A stretch of 64,000 bases of DNA from the NCBI RefSeq assembly GCF_014333615.1, contig NZ_JACSCY010000006.1:124001-188000 (forward strand). The letters are read 5' to 3'. Each line of letters opens with the position of its first letter. The stretch's first letter is position 1. The notes under the pieces are model-generated. The model ran no database searches. It was given only the letters and a program-made list of their open reading frames with translations, and was not told the origin of the DNA. This document shows positions 762-60,932 of the stretch, piece by piece. A program made the translations under genes and the position numbers. The DNA is from Hymenobacter citatus. Its GTDB lineage: Bacteria > Bacteroidota > Bacteroidia > Cytophagales > Hymenobacteraceae.

Positions 762-2411
762 ATGATCCGACGCCTACTACCGCTTCTGTTCCTGCTGCCG
801 TTTCTGGGCTGCCATTCTACCAACCGCCAACAGGCCGATTTACTGGTGTACAATGCCACGGTGTATACCGTAGATTCGGCATTCAGCAAAGCGCAGGCGT
901 TTGTGGTGCGTAACGGCAAATTTGTGGCGGTGGGCCAAGCCGATGCACTACGGGCGAAGTATCAGGCCAAAGAGGAAATGGATGCCGACGGCCAGTTCGT
1001 CTACCCCGGTTTTTACGATGCGCACTGCCACTTCTACCGCTACGCCCTGGGCCTGCGCTCGGCCGATCTGGTAGGCACCGAGTCGTGGCCCGCGGTGGTG
1101 GAGCGCCTCACCGAGCACCACCAGCAGCAGCCCGATGCCACCTGGCTGGTGGGCCGCGGCTGGGACCAGAACGACTGGCCCCGCCAGCAATTCCCGACCA
1201 AAGACACCCTGGACGCGCTGTTTCCCAGCACGCCCGTGTTCATCACCCGCGTAGATGGGCACGCCGCCCTGGCCAACCAGGCGGCGCTGGACCTGGCCGG
1301 CATCACGCCCAACACGCCCATCAGCGGCGGCGTGATTGGGCGCGACCGGCAGGGCAAGCTCACGGGCCTGCTGGTAGATAATGCCGTGAAGCTGGTGTCG
1401 GCCAGAGTGCCAGAGCCGACTTCAACCGAAGCCGAAAAAGCACTCTTGCAGGCCCAGGAAAACTGCGTGGCCGTGGGCCTTACCAGCCTCGCCGACGCTG
1501 GCCTGGACCGCGCCGACATTGAGCGCATGACCATCCTGCAACGCGTGGGCAAGCTGAAGCTGCGCCTCTACGCCATGCTCAACCCTACCCCCGAAAACAA
1601 GGCCTACTACCTTCCCAAAGGCCCCATTTTCAAGGATCGGATGACCATTTGTTCCTTTAAGGTGTATGCTGATGGGGCGCTGGGCTCGCGCGGGGCCAGT
1701 CTGCTGGCGCCCTACACCGACCATCCCGAGGAAACCGGCTTCCTCCTCCAGCACCCCGAGTACTACCGCGACCTAGCCAACGAGCTGGCGGCCACCAAGT
1801 TTCAGATGAACACCCACGCCATCGGCGACTCCAGCAACCGCTTGCTGCTGGACATCTATGGCGCCGCCTTGCAAGGCCAAACCGACCGGCGCTGGCGCAT
1901 CGAGCACGCGCAAGTGGTGAGCCAGGCTGATATTCCGAAGTTTGGGCAGTACCACATTGTGCCATCCATTCAGCCTACCCACGCCACCTCCGATATGTAC
2001 TGGGCCGGCGAGCGGCTGGGCCAGCAGCGCCTCGAAACTGCCTACGCCTACCAGGACTTGCTGCAGCAATACGGCCAGGTGGCCCTGGGCAGCGACTTTC
2101 CAGTGGAGGACATCAACCCGCTCTATGGATTCCACGCGGCCGTGGCCCGGCAAGATGCCAAGAACTACCCCGCCGGCGGCTTCCAGATGAACAACGCCCT
2201 CAGCCGCCCCGACGCCCTGCGCGGCATGACCACCTGGGCCGCCCACGCTGCCTTCGAGGACAAGCAGAAAGGCCAGATCAAGCCCGGCATGGCCGCCGAT
2301 TTTGTAATCCTAAACACCGATTTGCTGACCGCCCCCAACGATAAGCTCCGCGGCGCCAAAGTGCAGCAAACCTGGATTGCGGGGGAAAAAGTGTTTTCAA
2401 TTAAAAAGTAA
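762..2411 (+). CDS. YtcJ-like amidohydrolase, lipoprotein
   Basis: A 549-residue metal-dependent amidohydrolase of the YtcJ/amidohydrolase-3 type. The ATG at 762 is chosen over a TTG at 747 because it gives a clean signal sequence (MIRRLLPLLFLLPFLGC) with a lipobox ending at Cys17, so the protein should be a lipoprotein in the cell envelope. The metal-site motif DAHCHFYR lies near residue 85. Other family motifs follow in order: DGALGSRGASL, THAIGDSSNR, RIEHAQ and LGSDFPVEDINP, and the end has the usual GMAADFVIL return strand. Substrate unknown; relatives act on N-substituted amino acids, formamides or cyclic amides. A long hairpin (2413-2577) follows the stop codon directly. Confidence 0.85.
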   Translation: MIRRLLPLLFLLPFLGCHSTNRQQADLLVYNATVYTVDSAFSKAQAFVVRNGKFVAVGQADALRAKYQAKEEMDADGQFVYPGFYDAHCHFYRYALGLRSADLVGTESWPAVVERLTEHHQQQPDATWLVGRGWDQNDWPRQQFPTKDTLDALFPSTPVFITRVDGHAALANQAALDLAGITPNTPISGGVIGRDRQGKLTGLLVDNAVKLVSARVPEPTSTEAEKALLQAQENCVAVGLTSLADAGLDRADIERMTILQRVGKLKLRLYAMLNPTPENKAYYLPKGPIFKDRMTICSFKVYADGALGSRGASLLAPYTDHPEETGFLLQHPEYYRDLANELAATKFQMNTHAIGDSSNRLLLDIYGAALQGQTDRRWRIEHAQVVSQADIPKFGQYHIVPSIQPTHATSDMYWAGERLGQQRLETAYAYQDLLQQYGQVALGSDFPVEDINPLYGFHAAVARQDAKNYPAGGFQMNNALSRPDALRGMTTWAAHAAFEDKQKGQIKPGMAADFVILNTDLLTAPNDKLRGAKVQQTWIAGEKVFSIKK

Positions 2412-2412
2412 G

Positions 2413-2577
2413 AATGCCGATGATGGCGCGGGGCTGTGCCCCGTGTCTACTATTCGCAGGCCTCTGGCCTGCCCGTCTGCACGACGCACCCAAGCGTTCC
2501 TGGCGGCGCAGACGACAGCAGGCCAGAGGCCTGCGAATAGTAGACACGGGGCACAGCCCCGCGCCATCATCGGCATT
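2413..2577. repeat. Long perfect inverted repeat (60-bp arms)
   Basis: Arms 2413-2472 and 2518-2577 are perfect inverse copies over 60 bp around a 45-base centre. Inside the centre, CGTCTGC (2474-2480) and GCAGACG (2508-2514) extend the pairing. The element fills the gap between convergent genes, starting two bases after one stop codon and ending 16 bases before the other. The arms carry smaller palindromes (GGGGCTGTGCCCC, GCAGGCCTCTGGCCTGC). It could act as a two-way terminator, but there is no other copy in the window. Confidence 0.9.
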
Positions 2578-2592
2578 TTTAATTCTTAACTC

Positions 2593-3102
2593 TTAATTCT
2601 CGTCCGCGCTGGGGCCATAGAGGCCGGGCACTGGAATATCGAGCAGGCGCAGGTACACGGTGAGTTGGCCGCGGTGGTGGATGCTGTGGTTGAGGCCCAT
2701 GAGGCGGATGGCCGTGGCTTTGGGCGATTCAAAAATAGTATGTTCGCCGCGGTGCAGGCGGAAGTTTTCGGTTAGCTGTTCGTCGTTGGTGGCGTGTAGG
2801 GCCTGGCGCAGGGTAGCGCTGTACTCGTCGAAGCGGGCCAGCAGCTCTTCTTGGCTGGTAGGCGTGGGGCCGGGCTTGGGGCCGTTGGGGTCGAGAAAGT
2901 CGCGGGAGGCGTGCTGCACGAATAGCTGCTTGAACGCCAGCAGGTTGACCACGTGCGTAGCCAGCTGCCAGAGCGTCATGCTCTTGGGGTGCGGGCGGTA
3001 ATCAGCCTGGGCGTGGGGCACGCGCTCCAGTACGCGGCGGGTGCTGGCCAGCTCGTGGTCCAGCTCGCTCAGAATGTTTTGCTGAATGGAAGAGGTATGC
3101 AT
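2593..3102 (-). CDS. DinB-like four-helix bundle protein
   Basis: A 169-residue protein of the DinB/YfiT superfamily, putative metal-dependent enzymes with a four-helix bundle. The three metal-ligand histidines can be placed: one in the second helix segment (LWQLATHVVNLL) and two in the C-terminal LNHSIHHRGQLTVYLR segment, which is diagnostic for the family. The ATG at 3102 is chosen; the frame stays open upstream but that part looks like non-coding leader. DinB-like proteins include thiol-dependent transferases, but nothing here shows the substrate. The 270 bases upstream separate it from the divergent FAH gene and should hold both promoters. A second DinB family member lies at 57776-58258. 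Confidence 0.85.
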   Translation of the reverse strand: MHTSSIQQNILSELDHELASTRRVLERVPHAQADYRPHPKSMTLWQLATHVVNLLAFKQLFVQHASRDFLDPNGPKPGPTPTSQEELLARFDEYSATLRQALHATNDEQLTENFRLHRGEHTIFESPKATAIRLMGLNHSIHHRGQLTVYLRLLDIPVPGLYGPSADEN

Positions 3103-12407: not shown

Positions 12408-12498
12408 GTCATGCTGAGCTTGCCGAAGCATCTCGCGTGCTGATGTGAGATAGTATCTTTCGTCAGCACGCGAGATTTCTCCCGCTGGTCGAAATGAC
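12408..12498. repeat. Dispersed inverted repeat, family C, copy 1
   Basis: The left end reads GTCATGCTGAGCTTG and the right end CTGGTCGAAATGAC; the inner pairing is CTCGCGTGCTGA with TCAGCACGCGAG around a short centre. The outer arms are of two different subtypes (AGCTTGCCGAAGC and the CAGCGGGAGAAAT type), so this copy is mosaic. It lies in the operon between the molybdopterin subunit gene and xdhC. Confidence 0.8.
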
Positions 12499-16110: not shown

Positions 16111-16300
16111 GAGCGGTGAGATGGTGAGGTAGTGAAATGGTGAGTTTTGTCGTTCAGACGGCACAATCAGCGCCATCAGAAACTGTTGGTGAAGGGAGGA
16201 TGAGGCTGCGAATTCATTCGTGCAGCAGACATTTGACACTGTATTGTTCACAGCAACAATGCCTTACTCACCATCTCACGATTTCGCCATCTCACCTTTC
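16111..16300. repeat. Inverted GTGAGATG arrays between FAD and 2Fe-2S subunit genes
   Basis: A short GGTGAGATGGTGAGG-type array (16114-16144) and its inverse (ACTCACCATCTCAC...CCATCTCACC, 16265-16296) flank a 120-base centre with no clear gene. The right array overlaps the end of the next gene (stop at 16276-16278), so the last codons of the 2Fe-2S subunit (Glu-Met-Ala-Lys-Ser) and its stop are made of repeat sequence. The same arrangement is seen at 17925-18177 and 43344-43567. Confidence 0.7.
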
Positions 16301-16920
16301 GCTTCCAGAATGGCCGCCGTGATGTTGGGGTAGGCGCTGCACCGGCACAGGTTGCCGCTCATCCACTCCCGCACTTCGGCCTCGGAGCCGGCGTGGCCTT
16401 CTTTCACGCAGGCCACGCCCGACATGATCTGGCCCGGCGTGCAGTACCCGCACTGGAATCCGTCGTGCTTGAGGAAGGCTTCCTGCATGGGGTGCAGGTT
16501 GTCGCCCTGGGCCAGGCCCTCGATGGTGGTTATTTCCTTGCCCTGGTTCATCACGGCCAGGCTGAGGCAGCTTACAATGCGGCGGCCGTCTACGTGCACG
16601 GTGCAGGCGCCGCATTGGCCATGGTCGCAGCCTTTCTTGCTGCCGGTGAGGCCCATGTACTCACGCAGGGCGTCCAGCAGGCTCACGCGGGGCTCTAGTT
16701 GCAGCGTGCGCACGGTGCCGTTCACTTTCAGCTGCACCGGCGACACGCCCGCTACCTTTTTGGAGAGGGCCGTGAGGCGTTCGGCCTGGCTGATGAAGGG
16801 CGGCGCCATCACCAGACCTAGGATACCCCCGGCCTGCTTCATGAAATTCCGCCGCGAGCCATCGTTGGGCGTAACTCCGGGGTTGGTGCCGCTCTGGTCG
16901 GCCGGAGAATCGTTATACAT
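16276..16920 (-). CDS. Tat-exported 2Fe-2S subunit of Pao/Xdh-type oxidoreductase
   Basis: A 214-residue iron-sulfur subunit. A twin-arginine signal (SRRNFMKQ with Arg23-Arg24) and a hydrophobic stretch predict export of the folded enzyme to the periplasm, as for PaoA. The plant-type 2Fe-2S site has Cys98, 103, 106 and 118 (GCDHGQCGACTV...SC) and the second 2Fe-2S domain Cys157, 160, 192 and 194 (CGYC...CRC). It is the first gene of the operon 2Fe-2S - FAD - Mo subunit - xdhC - mocA-like. The final residues come from a repeat array, so this end may differ between strains. The first ATG is used. Confidence 0.9.
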   Translation of the reverse strand: MYNDSPADQSGTNPGVTPNDGSRRNFMKQAGGILGLVMAPPFISQAERLTALSKKVAGVSPVQLKVNGTVRTLQLEPRVSLLDALREYMGLTGSKKGCDHGQCGACTVHVDGRRIVSCLSLAVMNQGKEITTIEGLAQGDNLHPMQEAFLKHDGFQCGYCTPGQIMSGVACVKEGHAGSEAEVREWMSGNLCRCSAYPNITAAILEAKGEMAKS

Positions 16921-17258: not shown

Positions 17259-17924
17259 ATGCCTACTTCTTTCCTGCGTTTCTTTGGTTTGACTACTTTT
17301 CTGCTGGCCGCCGCTTGTACCAGCAACAAAAACCTGGAGCAAGACAGCCCGCAGGTCAGCGCCGAGGTAGTGGCCCCTACCCGGCCCGCCGCCCGACCTA
17401 AGCCACGCCGCCTGGCACAACTGGATACCACGCATTTCTCACCCCAGTTCATTCGTAGCTTTCAGGAAGCCAACAAAGCCGAAACCAGCTTCGATGTGCA
17501 CGGCGGCTGGCTCCTGCTCAGCCCCACCGACTCCGTGGCGTTTCCGGTGGCCGAGTTGCCTGCCAACGCACCAGTGGTATATGCTGCCACCGATAAGGGC
17601 CGTACGTATCGGCTCACGCTCACGCGCCGTAACTACTCCACGGTGCACTATGTGGCAGAAGCGCGTCAGGGCAGCAAGCTATTGAGCCGTCAAACCGGCT
17701 TGGCGGACCTTAATCCGAGCTTCTTCGCAGACATCGAAATTCCAAAGGACAGCGAAACGGGCCTACCCTACAGCGGCTACGAGTTTCAGGCTACTGCGCC
17801 TCAGCAACAGGGCTTTGCTGTGCTCATCGGCCGCAGTCAGGATGCAGACAAAGCGCAGGTGTACGGCGGCACTCAGCCGCAGCAAAGCGCGTGGCACAAC
17901 GTGCCTACCCTGCGGCGGCAGTAG
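17259..17924 (+). CDS. Putative lipoprotein, unknown function
   Basis: A 221-residue protein I do not recognise. The ATG at 17259 gives a signal peptide with lipobox LLAAAC (Cys20); the earlier in-frame ATG at 17208 would bury it. Mature residues 21-55 are Pro/Ala/Arg-rich and probably a flexible linker, followed by a beta-rich domain (SFDVHGGWLLLSPTDSVAFP, TYRLTLTRRNYSTVHY) with few charged clusters. No catalytic pattern is visible. A composite repeat begins at its stop codon. Confidence 0.7.
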   Translation: MPTSFLRFFGLTTFLLAAACTSNKNLEQDSPQVSAEVVAPTRPAARPKPRRLAQLDTTHFSPQFIRSFQEANKAETSFDVHGGWLLLSPTDSVAFPVAELPANAPVVYAATDKGRTYRLTLTRRNYSTVHYVAEARQGSKLLSRQTGLADLNPSFFADIEIPKDSETGLPYSGYEFQATAPQQQGFAVLIGRSQDADKAQVYGGTQPQQSAWHNVPTLRRQ

Positions 17925-18169
17925 GTGGTGAGATGGTGAGATGGTGAGATGGTGAGTAGTGAGTAGTGAGTAGTGAGTAGTGAGTAAAGAATACGACTGT
18001 CATCCCCTATCTGGCGTCCGCTTGCGAAGGATCTTATTACGCTAGCACAAGTCGTTGTTACGCTTGTCGTTCACACGTGAGAAGGTCCTTCGCAAGCGGA
18101 CGACAGATAGAGGATGACAGACGCTTTCTACTCACCACTCACAACTCACCATCTCACCATCTCACCATC

Positions 18170-18177
<8 letters not shown>
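17925..18177. repeat. Composite repeat: GTGAGATG arrays framing a family B hairpin
   Basis: The left part (17925-17986) is a tandem array, period 8 (GGTGAGAT) turning into period 7 (GTGAGTA). The core (17998-18120) is a family B hairpin: CTGTCATCC...GCGTCCGCTTGCGAAGGATCTT paired with AAGGTCCTTCGCAAGCGGACG...GGATGACAG. The right part (18129-18177) is the inverse array (CTCACCAT units). The element starts right after one stop codon and contains the stop codon of the convergent glucosidase gene (18170-18172). Confidence 0.85.
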
Positions 18178-20836
<2,659 letters not shown>

Positions 20837-30509: not shown

Positions 30510-32423
30510 ATGAATCTGCTTTCCGCTGAGAATATCTCAAAAAATTATGCCGACCGTTGGTTGTTCCGCGACCTGAACTTCGGCCTGCAACAGGGGCAGC
30601 GCGTGGCGCTGGTCGGCATCAATGGCACCGGCAAAACCACGTTGCTGCGCATTTTGGCCGGCATTGAGCCCGGCGACACGGGCTCGGTGAGCGTGCGCAA
30701 GGAAACCCGCGTGGCTTTTCTAGGCCAGCAGCCGGTGTTCGACGAGAACCTGACGGTGGAGGAAACCATCTTTGCCAGCCAAAACGCTACCTTGGCCGCC
30801 ATCCGCGACTACGAGCACGTGGTGAACGACCCCAACCACTCGCCCAACGAGTTGCAAAGGGTGCTAGAACTAATGGACACGCACAATGCCTGGGACTATG
30901 ACTCGCAGGTGAAGCAGATTCTGGGACGGCTGGGCATTTTGGGTGAGCTGCTGGAACGCAAGGTCAGCAACCTGTCGGGTGGGCAGCGCAAGCGTGTGGC
31001 CCTGGCCCGCGTGCTGATTGAGGAGCCCGACGTGCTGATTCTGGACGAGCCCACCAACCACCTCGACCTCGACACCATTGAGTGGCTCGAAAACCGTCTG
31101 GCCTCCCCTACCCTCACGCTGCTGATGGTGACCCACGACCGCTACTTCTTGGATAAGGTAGCCAACGAAATTGTGGAGCTGGACCAGGGCCGCGTGCATC
31201 GCTACCAGGGCAACTACTCTTACTTCGTGGAGAAGAAGGCTGAGCGCGAGCAGATGGAAACCGTGGAGGTAGAGAAGGCCCGTAACCTGTTGCGCAAGGA
31301 ATTGGAGTGGATGCGCCGCCAGCCTCAGGCCCGCGGCACCAAGCAAAAAGCCCGCATCGACGCGTTCTACGAAACGCAGGAGAAAGCCAAAACCAAGATT
31401 GGCGGTCCACAGCTGGAGCTGTCAGTGAAAACGACCCGCCAGGGCGGCAAGATCATTGAGGTAGAGCACTTGCACAAGCAGTTCGGCGACCATGTGGTGC
31501 TGGATGATTTCAGCTATGTGTTCAAGAAAAAAGACCGCATCGGCCTGATTGGTCCCAACGGCGCGGGCAAGTCTACCCTGCTGAACATGCTCACGGGCCG
31601 CCTGGCGCCCGACTCGGGTACTGTAGATGCAGGTCAGACCACCGTGTTTGGTTACTACACCCAAACGGAGCTGGAATTCGACGAGTCGCAGCGCGTGATT
31701 GATATTGTGAAGGAGGTGGCCGAAGTAGTGGAAATGGCTAACGGCGACGTGGTAACGGCCTCGCAGTTTTTGCAGCACTTCCAGTTTCCGCCGGCCCAGC
31801 AGTATACGCTGGTGAGCAAGCTGAGCGGAGGCGAAAAGCGCCGCTTGCAGCTGTTGCGCGTGCTGATCAAGAACCCCAACTTCCTGATTCTGGACGAGCC
31901 GACGAACGACCTGGATATCATTACACTGAATATCCTGGAAGACTTCTTGCTGAATTTCGCAGGCTGCTTGCTCATCGTATCGCACGACCGTTACTTCATG
32001 GATGCGCTGGTAGAGCACGTGTTTGTGCTGGAGCCAGGCGGCGTGATGCATAACTTCCCCGGCAACTACACCGACTACCGCGAGTGGCAGAAGGAGCACA
32101 ACACGGCCGAATATCAGCAGCAAGCCGCCAAAACGGCCAAGGCCGCCGCTGGCGTGGCGCCTGCCGCCGCCCCGGCTGCCCCCGTTCCTACCCCTGCGGC
32201 TACGCCCAAGCGCAAGGCTTCGTTTGCCGAGAAAAAGGAGTATGAGGCCTTAGAAGCCGACATGGAGAAGTTGGAAGCCGAAAAGCAGCAACTTGTAGAA
32301 AAGCTCAGCAGCGGCACTGGCGCCCCACAGGAGCTAGCCGATTGGGCCGCCCGCCTCAAGAAGATTGATACCGAACTCGACGTGAAGGGTGAGCGGTGGC
32401 TGGAACTAGCCGAGTTTGTTTAA
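30510..32423 (+). CDS. ABC-F family ATPase (Uup-like)
   Basis: A 637-residue soluble protein with two ABC ATPase domains and no membrane segments. Domain 1 has Walker A GINGTGKTT, signature LSGGQRKR and Walker B LILDEPTNHLDL; domain 2 has GPNGAGKST, LSGGEKRR and LILDEPTNDLDI. The linker between them (about residues 240-310, EKKAEREQMETVEVEKARNL) is the charged P-site tRNA interaction motif region. An Ala/Pro-rich stretch (about 535-565) leads into a C-terminal coiled coil (KKEYEALEADMEKLEAEKQQ), which is the Uup-type DNA/ribosome-interaction extension. It acts on ribosomes or in genome stability; antibiotic resistance is not implied by the sequence. Confidence 0.9.
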   Translation: MNLLSAENISKNYADRWLFRDLNFGLQQGQRVALVGINGTGKTTLLRILAGIEPGDTGSVSVRKETRVAFLGQQPVFDENLTVEETIFASQNATLAAIRDYEHVVNDPNHSPNELQRVLELMDTHNAWDYDSQVKQILGRLGILGELLERKVSNLSGGQRKRVALARVLIEEPDVLILDEPTNHLDLDTIEWLENRLASPTLTLLMVTHDRYFLDKVANEIVELDQGRVHRYQGNYSYFVEKKAEREQMETVEVEKARNLLRKELEWMRRQPQARGTKQKARIDAFYETQEKAKTKIGGPQLELSVKTTRQGGKIIEVEHLHKQFGDHVVLDDFSYVFKKKDRIGLIGPNGAGKSTLLNMLTGRLAPDSGTVDAGQTTVFGYYTQTELEFDESQRVIDIVKEVAEVVEMANGDVVTASQFLQHFQFPPAQQYTLVSKLSGGEKRRLQLLRVLIKNPNFLILDEPTNDLDIITLNILEDFLLNFAGCLLIVSHDRYFMDALVEHVFVLEPGGVMHNFPGNYTDYREWQKEHNTAEYQQQAAKTAKAAAGVAPAAAPAAPVPTPAATPKRKASFAEKKEYEALEADMEKLEAEKQQLVEKLSSGTGAPQELADWAARLKKIDTELDVKGERWLELAEFV

Positions 32424-32460
32424 AATAGTGAAGTGGTGAGCTTGTGAAGTTGTAAAATAA

Positions 32461-32505
32461 AAAGGGTATCATCCTGAACTTGCGAAGGATGATACCCTTT
32501 TTATT
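32461..32505. terminator. Hairpin terminator between convergent genes, family B-derived
   Basis: A perfect 15-bp stem (32461-32475 with 32486-32500) ends in T-rich sequence on the plus strand and in A-run/T-run symmetry on the minus strand. The stem contains the CATCCTGA...GCGAAGGATG words of repeat family B, so a shortened repeat seems to serve as a terminator. Worn GTGA-type units flank it (32428-32450). Confidence 0.75.
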
Positions 32506-32547
32506 TCCCTATCAGCACATCAACAATCAACCCATCAGCACATCACC

Positions 32548-41951: not shown

Positions 41952-43343
41952 ATGTCTTTCGCCGCGCTTCGTCCACATATCAAACCCACTCTGTTGCTGG
42001 CCTACCCAGTGGTGCTGAGCCAGTTGGGCCACGTGCTCGTCAACGTCTGCGACAGCGTGATGGTGGGCCATATTGAGCCGCCCGCGCTGGCGGCCACGTC
42101 GTTGGCGGCTATTTCGCTGGGTGTGAGCACGAGCACCGTTGGGTTGGTGCTGGGCCTGGGCGTGTCGTTGGGCATCACGCCGCTGGTAGCCGCCGCCAAC
42201 GGCCGCCGCGATGTGCCCGCGTTGGGCAGGCTGCTGGTGAACGGTGTGTGGCTATGCTTGGCGGCGGGCCTGGTGCTGGCCTTGCTGGGCTTTGCCCTGA
42301 CGCCGCTGCTGCGCTACCTGCACCAGCCGGCCGCTGTAGAGGCCCTGGCTCGGCCCTGGATTCAGGTGCTGTTTGTATCCTACGTGCCGCTGATGCTGTT
42401 TCAGGCGTTCAAGCAGTTTGCCGAGGGCCTGGGCCTCACCCGCCAGGCTATGTACTTGTCCATCATAGCCAATGTAGTCAACGCCTTTTTGTGCTACGTG
42501 CTGATTTTTGGCCATTTTGGGGCAGCGCCGATGGGCATGATGGGCTCGGCCTGGGCCACCCTCATGGCGCGCGTATTGATGGCCATGCTCATGGGAGCCT
42601 ATGTGCTACGGGCAGCCCGCCTGCAACCCTACCGCGAGGCCGCCAGCGCCCAACTCCTCCCCGATGCCGTTACGCTACGCCGGTTGCTGGGCCTGGGCGC
42701 ACCCATTGGCGTGCAGATGATGTTTGAGATGGGTGCCTTCAGCTTCTCAGCCATCATGATCGGCTGGCTGGGCGCTACGCCGCTGGCCGCGCATCAGATT
42801 GCCATCAATGTAGCGTCCGTCACTTACATGGCCGCTAGTGGCATTGCGGCAGCGGCCACCATCCGGGTAGGCAATTTTTATGGTCTGGGCGACGGCCCTA
42901 GCGCCCGGCAGGCGGGTTTCACGGCGTATTGGCTCACCTTCGTGTTCATGGGCACAATGGACCTGGTACTGGTAGTGGGCCGCGGTTTCATCCCCTACCT
43001 CTACAACGACACGCCACTGGTAGTGGAACAAGCCGCCGGGCTGCTGCTCATTGCCGCGCTGTTTCAGGTATCCGATGGCTTGCAGGTGGTAGGGCTAGGC
43101 GCCTTGCGCGGCCTGGAAGACGTAAAAGCGCCCTCCGTGGTGGCCTTGCTGGCCTACTGGGCTATAGCGCTGCCCGTGGGTTACGGCCTGGGCTTTGGGC
43201 TGGGCTGGGGCGCCACCGGCGTGTGGATAGGGCTACTCACCGGCCTCACGCTAGTGGCGGGCGTGCTGCTGTGGCGCTTCCGGCAGCACAGCGCCCAAAC
43301 ACCGGCAGCCGTGAACCCCGAGCGCATTGTGATGGCGCATTGA
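41952..43343 (+). CDS. MATE family efflux transporter
   Basis: A 463-residue multidrug-and-toxin-extrusion (NorM-type) transporter with about 12 transmembrane helices. Typical segments are AYPVVLSQLGHVLVNVCDSV (first helix, the dimerised-half signature), GSAWATLMARV, LGAPIGVQMMFEMGAFSFSA and the second-half AAHQIAINVASVTYMAASGI. It exports cationic or amphipathic compounds using sodium or proton gradients. The substrate is unknown. Its own promoter box and a preceding hairpin suggest it is separate from the egt genes. The stop codon TGA runs straight into a GTGAGATG array. Confidence 0.92.
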   Translation: MSFAALRPHIKPTLLLAYPVVLSQLGHVLVNVCDSVMVGHIEPPALAATSLAAISLGVSTSTVGLVLGLGVSLGITPLVAAANGRRDVPALGRLLVNGVWLCLAAGLVLALLGFALTPLLRYLHQPAAVEALARPWIQVLFVSYVPLMLFQAFKQFAEGLGLTRQAMYLSIIANVVNAFLCYVLIFGHFGAAPMGMMGSAWATLMARVLMAMLMGAYVLRAARLQPYREAASAQLLPDAVTLRRLLGLGAPIGVQMMFEMGAFSFSAIMIGWLGATPLAAHQIAINVASVTYMAASGIAAAATIRVGNFYGLGDGPSARQAGFTAYWLTFVFMGTMDLVLVVGRGFIPYLYNDTPLVVEQAAGLLLIAALFQVSDGLQVVGLGALRGLEDVKAPSVVALLAYWAIALPVGYGLGFGLGWGATGVWIGLLTGLTLVAGVLLWRFRQHSAQTPAAVNPERIVMAH

Positions 43344-43567
43344 GTGGTGAGATGGTGAAATGGTGAAGTTGTGAAGTTGTGAATATGGCTGTCATCCTGA
43401 GCATTCCGCGCATCAAGCGGCGACGAAGGACCTAATCACAATTGAACGATGGGCATAACAACGACTCGTTCTACCGGCATAAGGTCCTTCGTCGCCGCTT
43501 GATGCGCGGAATGCTCAGGATGACAGCCATATTCACCATCTCACCATCTCACCACTTCACCATCTCG
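43344..43567. repeat. Composite repeat: arrays framing a perfect 53-bp family B hairpin
   Basis: Arms 43381-43433 and 43482-43534 are perfect inverse copies over 53 bases. The left arm has its own variant (GCATTCCGCGCATCAAGCGG CGACGAAGGACC in two parts) that differs from every other family B copy, with the right arm matching it exactly. GTGGTGAGATGG-type units (43344-43380) and inverse CACCATCTC units (43535-43567) frame it. The conserved centre lies in the reverse orientation (CATAACAACGACTCGTTC). It sits between the MATE and DUF922 genes. Confidence 0.9.
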
Positions 43568-43620
43568 CAACTAAAAAACTCCCTTTCAGCGTTGGCACGG
43601 AAGTAGTATTTCTATTTGCC

Positions 43621-44187
43621 ATGTCCTTCCTATCGTTTTTATTGCCTGCCCTGCTGCTGGGCCGTTTTTCTTCTGCTCCCGCGCCTACCCAAACCACGCC
43701 GCCTAAGCCGGTCGTTATTGCCTGGTCGGCACAACGCAAGCTCACCTGGGCCGATTTCAAGAGCAAGCCTACCCCTGCCGACCGCTTAGCTGCGCTTACA
43801 TCAGGTAATATCGATGTGCAGGTAGGCTGCAAGGATTTCGTGTTTTCCTCGCAGGTGCAGGCTGTATTCATGCCCACCGAATCGTGGGTGCGGGAGGCTA
43901 CCACGGCCAGCCCCGACCTGCTGCGCCACGAGCAGCTACACTTCGACATCACAGAGCTATATGCCCGCCGCATGCGCCAGAAGCTGAGCCAGACTCAGTT
44001 CGACTGCCAGCACCTGCAACCCAAGTTTCAGAATCTGACCAAAGCCGTGTTTGCGGAGTGGCAGCGCGAAGAAGCCCGCTACGACCAGGCCACCAACCAC
44101 GGCCTGAACAAGCAGCAACAGCAGCTCTGGGAAACTCAGGTGCAGCAAAAGCTGGCGCAGCTAGAGCAGTTTGCCCTGGCCCAGTAA
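43621..44187 (+). CDS. DUF922 family protein, putative metalloprotease
   Basis: A 188-residue protein with a signal-like hydrophobic start (SFLSFLLPALLLGRF). A domain of the DUF922 type follows: WSAQRKLTWADFKSKP near residues 35-50, and LRHEQLHFDITELYARRMRQ near 100-120, where HEQLHFD fits the HExxH zinc site of small metalloproteases. The C-terminal part is a helical, Gln-rich region (LNKQQQQLWETQVQQKLAQ). Proteolytic activity is suggested by the motif and not proved. It is likely in the envelope or exported. A TATTTGCC sequence directly precedes the start codon. Confidence 0.8.
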   Translation: MSFLSFLLPALLLGRFSSAPAPTQTTPPKPVVIAWSAQRKLTWADFKSKPTPADRLAALTSGNIDVQVGCKDFVFSSQVQAVFMPTESWVREATTASPDLLRHEQLHFDITELYARRMRQKLSQTQFDCQHLQPKFQNLTKAVFAEWQREEARYDQATNHGLNKQQQQLWETQVQQKLAQLEQFALAQ

Positions 44188-44213: not shown

Positions 44214-44320
44214 AAAAGCCCGTCATTTCGACCAGCGAGAGAAATCTCGCGTGCTGATGGTAGATACTATCTCTCGTCAGCACGCGAGATTTCTCTCGCT
44301 AGTCGAAATGACGGGCTTTT
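44214..44320. repeat. Dispersed inverted repeat, family C, near-perfect copy
   Basis: Arms 44214-44257 and 44277-44320 pair over 44 bases with a single mismatch; the ends AAAAGCCCGTCATTTCGACC and the inverse add A/T-rich tails as in a terminator. The centre is 19 bases. It lies between the DUF922 and csaA genes. Confidence 0.9.
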
Positions 44321-54292: not shown

Positions 54293-54430
54293 CAGAACGT
54301 CATTTCGACCAGCGGGAGAAATCTCGCGTGCTGACATCGGATAGATATTACCATCAAGCGAGATTTCTCCCGCTGGTCGAAATGACGTTCTGGCGAAGCA
54401 CGCGAGATTCTTCGACAAGCTCAGAATGAC
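54293..54430. repeat. Dispersed inverted repeat, family C, perfect 35-bp arms plus partial copy
   Basis: Arms 54293-54327 and 54358-54392 are perfect inverse copies over 35 bases. A further half copy (CACGCGAGATTCTTCGACAA, then GCTCAGAATGACG) runs to 54430, and worn CTCACCATTTCACC units follow to 54473. It lies between the YggS and DUF423 genes. Confidence 0.9.
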
Positions 54431-54475
54431 GCTCTAACCACTCACCATTTCACCACTCACTATTTCACCATTTCC

Positions 54476-54853: not shown

Positions 54854-54889
54854 GCAGGAATTATATATTCCATTGACTGAAGCATTGTA

Positions 54890-54987
54890 GACCGTCATGC
54901 TGAGCTTGTCGAAGCATCTCGCGTGCTGACATGGGATACTACCTAACAAAGCGGTAGAGATGCTTCGACAAGCTCAGCATGACGGTC
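54890..54987. repeat. Dispersed inverted repeat, family C subtype, convergent gap
   Basis: Arms 54890-54920 and 54957-54987 are perfect inverse copies over 31 bases (GTCATGCTGAGCTTGTCGAA core), a subtype shared with the left end of the copy at 12408. It fills the gap between the converging DUF423 and amidohydrolase genes. Confidence 0.88.
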
Positions 54988-55015
54988 TTTTGACTTTCTA
55001 AATAGCTTCAATAAC

Positions 55016-57602: not shown

Positions 57603-57632
57603 TCCGTTTTCTGCCGTGCCGGATTAGCCATG

Positions 57633-57712
57633 CGCCCCAGGGCTGAAGCCCTGGGCTACGGAGCGTTTTCGCTTACAATCCACTGATTAGCCCAGGGCTT
57701 CAGCCCTGGGAC
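57633..57712. repeat. Dispersed inverted repeat, family A, copy 2
   Basis: Arms 57636-57658 and 57688-57710 are perfect 23-base inverse copies with the same sequence as copy 1 (619-711); the spacer differs in most bases. It lies between the converging acetamidase and DinB genes. Confidence 0.88.
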
Positions 57713-57775
57713 ACAGGATGCACGAACCCGCTATACTGTAGCTGGTGCTGCGGAGCCGGGGTAGGGCGGCACCAG

Positions 57776-60500: not shown

Positions 60501-60654
60501 GCCCTCGCTCGGCTGTGCCGAGTGAGCACTACGCCCCAGCAGCTCTGCTGCGCGCGTCTGTCACGCGTTGAGGCGGTTTCGAGCAAGCGGCGCAGCCGGA
60601 TTCGGGGCATAGCCCCTCAGGCGTAGTGCTCACTCGGCACAGCCGAGCGAGGGC
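60501..60654. repeat. Inverted repeat with perfect 35-bp arms, CTCGCTCGGC type
   Basis: Arms 60501-60535 and 60620-60654 are perfect inverse copies over 35 bases; each contains the smaller palindrome CTCGGCTGTGCCGAG. The 84-base centre includes GGGGCATAGCCCC, another hairpin. A degenerate relative lies at 44743-44890. Confidence 0.9.
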
Positions 60655-60657
60655 GGA

Positions 60658-60795
60658 GCCTGCCGGTCCGACGCCGTAAGCGTCCGACCGGTTGCCGCAT
60701 GCTGAGGTTGCACGAACGGCCTGCGGACGTTGCATATGGCGGGGCTGTCAGCACGCGGCAACCGGTCGGACGCCTGCGGCGTCGAACCGGCAGGC
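60658..60795. repeat. Inverted repeat with 48-bp imperfect arms, GGTCCGACGCC type
   Basis: Arm 60658-60705 pairs with 60748-60795 with about four mismatches (for example GCCTGCCGGT with ACCGGCAGGC). Each arm has internal GACGCCGTAAGCGTC-like palindromes. It starts four bases after the neighbouring repeat, so the two form a tandem pair. Confidence 0.85.
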
Positions 60796-60932
60796 GCCAG
60801 CGCGGAAGCCCTGATAGAATCAAAGGGAGCACTAATGCAGGCTGTGCAATTCTTGCCACGCATGGCAGCAGCCGTAACTTGGCAAGCTCAACCACTACCT
60901 TACCCGCCACCCAACCTACGCCTACCGACCGC

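Follow-up and report, generated by a model that had tools for sequence, protein, structure and literature searches.

Palindromes lodged in or at genes, like those described here from Hymenobacter, are known from Rickettsia; we know of no Rickettsia palindromic element with tandem-array arms, the two groups being related here by their layout and not by sequence comparison. Two of the Rickettsia elements, RPE-4 and RPE-6, are named in PMC3733652. In heterocystous cyanobacteria the STRR (short tandemly repeated repetitive) sequences are likewise short tandem arrays; they are scattered over the genome and have been reported from rnpB, the gene of the RNase P RNA (Vioque 1997, cited in PMC2858038). 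As far as that source describes them, the Hymenobacter arrays, which belong to another phylum, differ in forming inverted pairs round a core, in abutting stop codons and in changing their unit within the genus. TAACTGA heptamer repeats have been described in Beggiatoaceae, Cyanobacteria and five Bacteroidetes, and share with the present case intergenic 7-base arrays with stops in three frames that may overlap gene ends. In the account of PMC4679880, however, these repeats, apart from one indirect repeat, are direct and in most cases immediately precede start codons, whereas the Hymenobacter units differ from TAACTGA and form inverted pairs that abut stops, not starts.

The CGTC-tagged REPs reported in Bacteroidetes are head-to-head dimers with no dedicated transposase (PMC3733652). 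The hairpin at the core of many Hymenobacter elements, here called family B, can be read directly as a head-to-head palindromic dimer (TGTCATCCTGAGC..GAAGGACCT and its inverse) and, with TGTC or CGTC at its ends, looks like these REPs, the comparison being with their description, not with the published consensus; the tag is mostly TGTC, with CGTC in some array-less hairpins. Flanking stop-codon arrays, which the Hymenobacter elements have, do not figure in that description of CGTC-tagged REPs (PMC3733652). BrickBuilt, a MITE of the Bacteroidota species Porphyromonas gingivalis, likewise joins a tandem array to ends that are inverted repeats, and the Hymenobacter elements have terminal inverted repeats as MITEs do; in the account of PMC4596501, however, its array is internal, of 23-base units, 49-591 bases from genes, whereas the 7-8-base arrays of Hymenobacter are themselves the arms and touch genes. 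Template switching at quasipalindromes is described as homogenising inverted-repeat arms and inverting spacers (PMC8604942) and as creating and mending RNA stems (PMC8794818; see also PMC7202029), so that arms are homogenised, spacers inverted and stems made or mended without an RNA intermediate, as seems to apply here. In these accounts it is known as single mutation events, whereas in Hymenobacter a whole repeat family, present at the ends of many genes, bears this signature. The components of the elements have precedents, and the combination of inverted arrays with a core is apparently new: a description of arrays, core and gene ends together did not turn up in searches of the open-licence PMC literature.

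The elements were analysed in a 64-kb stretch of Hymenobacter citatus DNA (the window; Table 1). The array, family B hairpin and inverse array that a sequence-only reading had placed at 17925-18177 and 43344-43567 are present there and go beyond shuffles. With up to three mismatches, GGTGAGATGGTGAGAT matched 18 times in the window, against a mean of 0.25 and a largest count of 2 in 100 shuffles, and the two stretches folded as RNA at -170.3 kcal/mol (z -20.4 against shuffles) and -160.3 kcal/mol (z -22.0). Their inverted arms were 94% (17925-17973/18128-18176), 85% (17988-18041/18076-18129) and, over 110 nt, 85% complementary (43340-43449/43466-43575). The stretch at 16111-16300, which had been read as an array pair without a hairpin, is such a pair, with arms 84% complementary (16115-16145/16266-16296) and a fold of -80.9 kcal/mol (z -6.6), but the second half of the description was too simple, since the interior opens like a worn short kernel, TTTTGTCGTTC. 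Stretches without the opposite array (16111-16240 and 43344-43480) folded like shuffles (z -0.2 and 0.4). The worn units noticed near 32428 and 54438 proved to be single arrays beside hairpins. The arrays abut or contain stops, as had also been read (at 17922-17924 and 43341-43343, for example), and the minus-strand frames 18170-20836 and 16276-16920 stop at TGAs of arrays. The gene products nearby, taken from the sequence for MATE, a glucosidase and a 2Fe-2S subunit, carry the domains MatE, MGH1-like/GH63 (glycoside hydrolase) and Fer2/Fer2_2. The window also holds CGTC-tagged-REP-like dimer hairpins on CGTCATTTCGACC or CGTCATGCTGAGC (12430-12476, 44214-44320, 54293-54435 and 54889-54988), and CCCAGGGCTTCAGCCCTGGG hairpins at 619-710 and 57631-57715, of a kind close to the REPs flanking RAYT-type genes of two relatives (G060 and G059).

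Table 1. Arrays, cores and single arrays in the window (positions are those of the window).
Feature	Position	Strand	Description
Element 1, left array	17925-17986	+	TGGTGAGA units 17926-17956, then GTGAGTA units 17952-17986; starts one base past TAG 17922-17924
Element 1, core	17988-18129	.	Family B-type hairpin whose stem (arm 17988-18041, arm 18076-18129) has diverged
Element 1, right inverse array	18130-18178	-	CTCACCAT units; the minus-strand gene 18170-20836 has its TGA stop here
Element 2, left array	43344-43388	+	Directly behind the TGA stop of the MatE gene (43341-43343)
Element 2, core	43389-43526	.	Family B hairpin, TGTCATCCTGAGC...GCTCAGGATGACA
Element 2, right inverse array	43527-43567	-	
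Element 3, left array	16111-16146	+	Adjoins the likely minus-strand ATG of the FAD-binding subunit gene
Element 3, interior	16147-16264	.	Opens like a worn short kernel; slot almost empty in G060 (23 bases) and in G026 (21 bases)
Element 3, right inverse array	16265-16297	-	Provides TGA 16276-16278 of the 2Fe-2S subunit gene
Single worn array	32428-32453	+	Left of a small hairpin at 32455-32506; ABC-transporter gene ends at 32423
Single worn inverse array	54437-54474	-	Right of REP-like hairpins at 54293-54435

In the 5.08-Mb host genome, GGTGAGATGGTGAGAT gave 71 + 81 matches with at most one mismatch and its reversed control 0, and at least 164 arrays were found in the 827 kb of own-genome DNA around the matches listed. 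Among these, 62 of the 65 neighbouring array pairs less than 400 bases apart were convergent, in the order GGTGAGAT array, core and inverse array, and the other three comprised one each of the remaining orientation kinds. Interior lengths, again among the matches listed, clustered at about 50-68 and 118-190 bases. The short interiors hold a TTTGATGTTC..GCGC-rich..GAACATCAAA kernel and the long ones mostly the REP-dimer-like TGTCATCCTGAGC..GCTCAGGATGACA hairpin of family B; in a few elements (e.g. C25:182053) the hairpin is nested inside short-class tips. A correctly oriented array stood within 60 bases of 38 of 83 family B-like hairpins, against a mean of 0.92 and a largest value of 6 in 300 circular shifts; this share is inflated and, like the other association shares, an upper value, because the DNA was fetched around the array matches listed and not from every genomic site, and the set of 83 takes in CGTCATGCTGAGC variants and misses diverged stems like that of element 1. 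Given this association and the convergence of the pairs, arrays and hairpins do not occur independently; independent occurrence, which would have refuted the sequence-only reading, is thus not what the genome shows. The nested layout that it pointed out is a genome-wide unit, but a fixed partnership of array and hairpin is not, since either occurs without the other: 45 of the 83 hairpins had no array in the same 60-base test, and about 26 of the 62 convergent pairs, among the matches listed, enclose a short interior of less than 100 bases and no family B hairpin. The constant feature is the architecture, not the particular array and hairpin sequences. The two arms of one element are more alike (0.89) than arms of different elements (0.80; n=62; largest of 10,000 permutations 0.839).

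The elements sit at gene ends. With genes of the own genome predicted by a custom ORF and codon-score caller, elements were faced by 87 gene 3′ ends, of which 78 lay -30 to +10 bases from the array edge, with peaks at +2 and -5 (17 ends each), and many gene stops were the array's own TGA or TAG. Stops inside arrays were TGA in 24 cases, TAG in 13 and TAA in none, and those up to 6 bases ahead of arrays were TAG (15), TAA (13) and TGA (9), while all 636 predicted genes used TAA 267, TAG 252 and TGA 117 times. Read inward, 92 of the 106 arrays that are 22 nt or longer stop every one of the three frames; read outward, none does. By gene context the 62 elements comprised 28 convergent, 30 co-directional, two divergent and two unresolved cases, and 97 of 503 gaps longer than 60 bases were convergent. 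The long class was found 23 times in convergent and 11 times in co-directional context, and the short class 5 and 19 times (p 5.5e-4). Truncation of genes by the elements was rejected: the proteins and their counterparts in relatives agreed in length to within one residue in 42 of 43 rows, the rows being limited to alignments of at least 60% identity that came no further than 40 residues short of the end, a filter that could hide larger differences, and two of the rows concern a gene end 1.8 kb off. Since the proteins end at the homologous place, the arrays begin at the old stop. Where the array provides the stop (16276-16278), the last residues differ, EAKGEMAKS against EAEKSMKA in relatives. 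Of 32 long elements, 19 had a T run and 13 lacked one, and 19 had an A run; when window positions 43000-43900 were scanned for terminators, the count was 0. The hairpins may act as terminators, ending transcripts, or may protect them.

The same architecture is also found inside an RNA gene. The rnpB gene was found in all 73 genomes and analysed in 70 (G058 is a fragment, and G023 and G032 were left out). In 37 of the 70 it carries a palindromic insert of 67-101 nt, and in the other 33 at most 26 nt; placed by Rfam alignment, the insert extends one helix, which we take to be P12. The best period of its left arm was 8 in 23 and 7 in 12 of the 37 inserts. Arm similarity was 0.47 within inserts and 0.23 between species (the permutations reached 0.317 at most), and in 13 of 37 cases the true partner arm ranked first. 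The unit in rnpB tracks the abundant array of the genome for GGTGAGAT (p 7e-5) and GAGTTAA (p 5e-4), and for TTAGCTG no such link with the count in the genome was seen (p 0.78). The idea that the units exist solely for their stop codons is weakened by this gene, because it is untranslated, though more frames are shut by its inward arms than by shuffles (2.45 against 1.69; outward, slightly more too, 1.18 against 0.94). A RAYT-type Y1 transposase gene lies about 1 kb or less from rnpB in G016, G031, G019 and G002; the first three have the P12 insert and G002 lacks it, and in G031 an array palindrome lies inside the rnpB that adjoins the RAYT-type gene.

Across the own genome and 118 relatives, GGTGAGAT was matched in 42 of 119 genomes: 40 of the 73 Hymenobacter genomes, counting the own one, and 2 of the 46 others, each of which had one match. 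Other species use other units in the same layout. GAGTTAA, the dominant unit of other species, gave 173 matches in G051 and 153 in G036, the highest of the 73 genomes, and TTAGCTG gave 159 in G067 and 103 in G016. All 20 chosen GAGTTAA loci were convergent pairs, which speaks for orientation and not frequency, as the loci had been picked for both strands being listed; among TTAGCTG loci, mostly picked from exact matches, 8 of 20 were. In G038 a GAGTTAA pair encloses family B. Gene ends, here taken from longest open frames, lay -30 to +10 bases from the array in 22 of 40 cases for GAGTTAA and 23 of 28 for TTAGCTG. Arm agreement was weak for GAGTTAA, 154 of 10,000 permutations reaching the observed value (n=20). 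At window positions 2401-2600, a palindrome with 72-nt arms (96%) has a GAGTTAA-like array to its right. Outside Hymenobacter, 3 of 37 GGTGAGAT loci were convergent pairs, these loci having been found with GGTGAGAT alone and no control unit. Single GGTGAGAT arrays occur in the unrelated Rahnella, Myroides, Pandoraea and Cellvibrio (L134, L136, L172, L187 and others) and are perhaps usual for any 8-base unit.

Turnover of the sites was followed in the nearest relatives, G060 (89%) and G026 (87%), so ranked from one 1,220-base query. In 25 comparisons at 18 loci the slot was usually occupied by a palindrome, but a different one. For example, C27:196949 holds a kernel with arrays in the own genome, bare arrays in G060 and family B in G026; C10:38749 has a TTAGC-type array in G060, and C10:37193 an ordinary hairpin in both relatives. 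At the 17925 locus the hairpin is common to the three genomes and long arrays on both sides occur only in the own genome, G026 having a short array-like stretch on the right side. The only near-empty slot of the 18 loci, in both G060 and G026, corresponds to window 16111-16300 (C28:140115); sequence was replaced there with neither a target duplication nor a clean junction, and insertion with target duplication was not seen at the sole site of this kind. Similarity between the arms of one element (0.62 and 0.56) exceeded that of the same arm across species (0.38), being higher in 20 of 22 comparisons (Wilcoxon p 2.6e-5), and the core loop was inverted in three of nine orthologous comparisons, the same in three and ambiguous in three. 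Thus both marks of template switching were observed, partial homogenisation of arms within a locus and spacer inversion.

We consider it rather probable that the elements form a palindromic repeat family that is dispersed in Hymenobacter and turns over fast. It would arise and be partly homogenised at the DNA level, by template switching and conversion, and be tolerated at gene ends and in an RNA loop because its arms contain stops and pair with one another. The function and the mode of spread are what we infer from these comparisons. The outer arms are tandem 7-8-base units with stops on the inward strand, and the inside is a REP-dimer-like hairpin or a short GTTC..GAAC kernel. Copies are placed where a foldback harms little, in the gap between gene ends up to the stop or at the tip of P12. 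In this model, foldback template switching (quasipalindrome correction) would generate the arm symmetry in DNA, and conversion among dispersed copies would bring the species' current unit to many sites, sometimes inverting the core loop. Each arm would shut the reading frames of a ribosome arriving from its side, so that arrays are tolerated and perhaps kept.

A non-autonomous transposon family of MITE or REP-like type, in which a transposase acting in trans copies whole palindromes whose perfect arms decay afterwards, is possible though doubtful. Many copies of one unit per genome, the element gained at the 16111 slot, frequent one-sided decay, the empty P12 in 33 of 70 genomes and the RAYT-type genes adjoining rnpB in G016, G031, G019 and G002 would fit it, but the sole near-empty site bears neither a target duplication nor a clean junction, slot contents are swapped and not added to, arrays vary from copy to copy yet agree between the arms of a copy, and the array-bearing G026 and G052 gave no Y1 matches. 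Mobilisation by RAYT in particular found no support at the loci read, the six RAYT-type loci of G000, G009, G016, G031, G059 and G060 bearing their own, different REP hairpins and no array, family B or kernel within 900 bases; therefore no carrier was identified, and in a transposase search that covered the Y1 family neither a carrier nor a spreading step was seen. Within the preferred DNA-level reading, spread without a transposase is a conjecture that we hold unlikely as it stands: foldbacks would stall or be cut in replication and be repaired from other palindromes, so that arrays would home between hairpin sites (gene ends and an RNA helix) with both arms rewritten together, each species would acquire its own prevailing unit, and the stops in the arms would be what it costs to sit next to genes. 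All 9 of the 9 genomes tested have SbcD, and such cutting of palindromes is therefore possible; loss of SbcCD as the reason for their persistence was rejected on the same finding.

Selection on RNA structure, by which bidirectional terminators or mRNA-protecting stems would be kept paired through the transcript, is improbable. An RNA that is selected to pair should show a great excess of G·U over A·C among its imperfect pairs. The rnpB inserts gave G·U:A·C of 49:53 (84 others), against 105:0 (84 others) in the rest of the RNA, over 63 Rfam pairs outside the insert, and RNA-level selection for pairing in these inserts was rejected; an alternative control, whose pairs were chosen by RNAalifold (521:19), favours G·U, and the Rfam structure was used instead. 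Thirty co-directional intergenic elements gave 58:53 (72 others). Strong folds, the position of 23 of 36 elements of the hairpin class between convergent genes and the A and T runs speak for transcript-level selection, but the symmetry stretches well past what a terminator needs and a like design stands within rnpB. The arms thus seem not to be held complementary by RNA-level selection, and copying at the DNA level, whether in place or of preformed palindromes, accounts for their pairing better than RNA selection does; preformed perfect palindromes with neutral decay would yield the same ratio too. Watson-Crick changes on both sides (42 intergenic and 214 rnpB cells) were above a rough estimate for independent change, and one-sided changes (80 and 743) were commoner than compensated ones, in counts that draw repeatedly on related species; decay of the arms therefore goes on as well, and correction in situ makes it good only in part.

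Across numerous sites and species, these elements document in nature palindromes that do not seem to owe their pairing to RNA selection, even in an essential ribozyme. Helix covariation, often taken as proof of RNA function, can apparently arise at the DNA level, and the ratio of G·U to A·C separates DNA-level from RNA-selected pairing. One phenomenon here connects the varying length of helix P12 in RNase P with arrays of stop codons and with dimers of REP-like type.

That the arrays are contingency loci, varying gene expression or protein ends by slippage, is very improbable: the units are tandem and their copy number differs between elements, but the arrays lie past the stop, protein ends are constant and the paired layout is left unexplained. 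Chance neighbourhood of independent repeats is hardly credible, as the convergent pairs and the excess of hairpins with an array outweigh the occurrence of each alone and the single GGTGAGAT arrays, seldom convergent, of other bacteria. At window positions 60501-60798, two neighbouring long G+C-rich inverted repeats with 48- and 51-nt arms lie at divergent frame starts.
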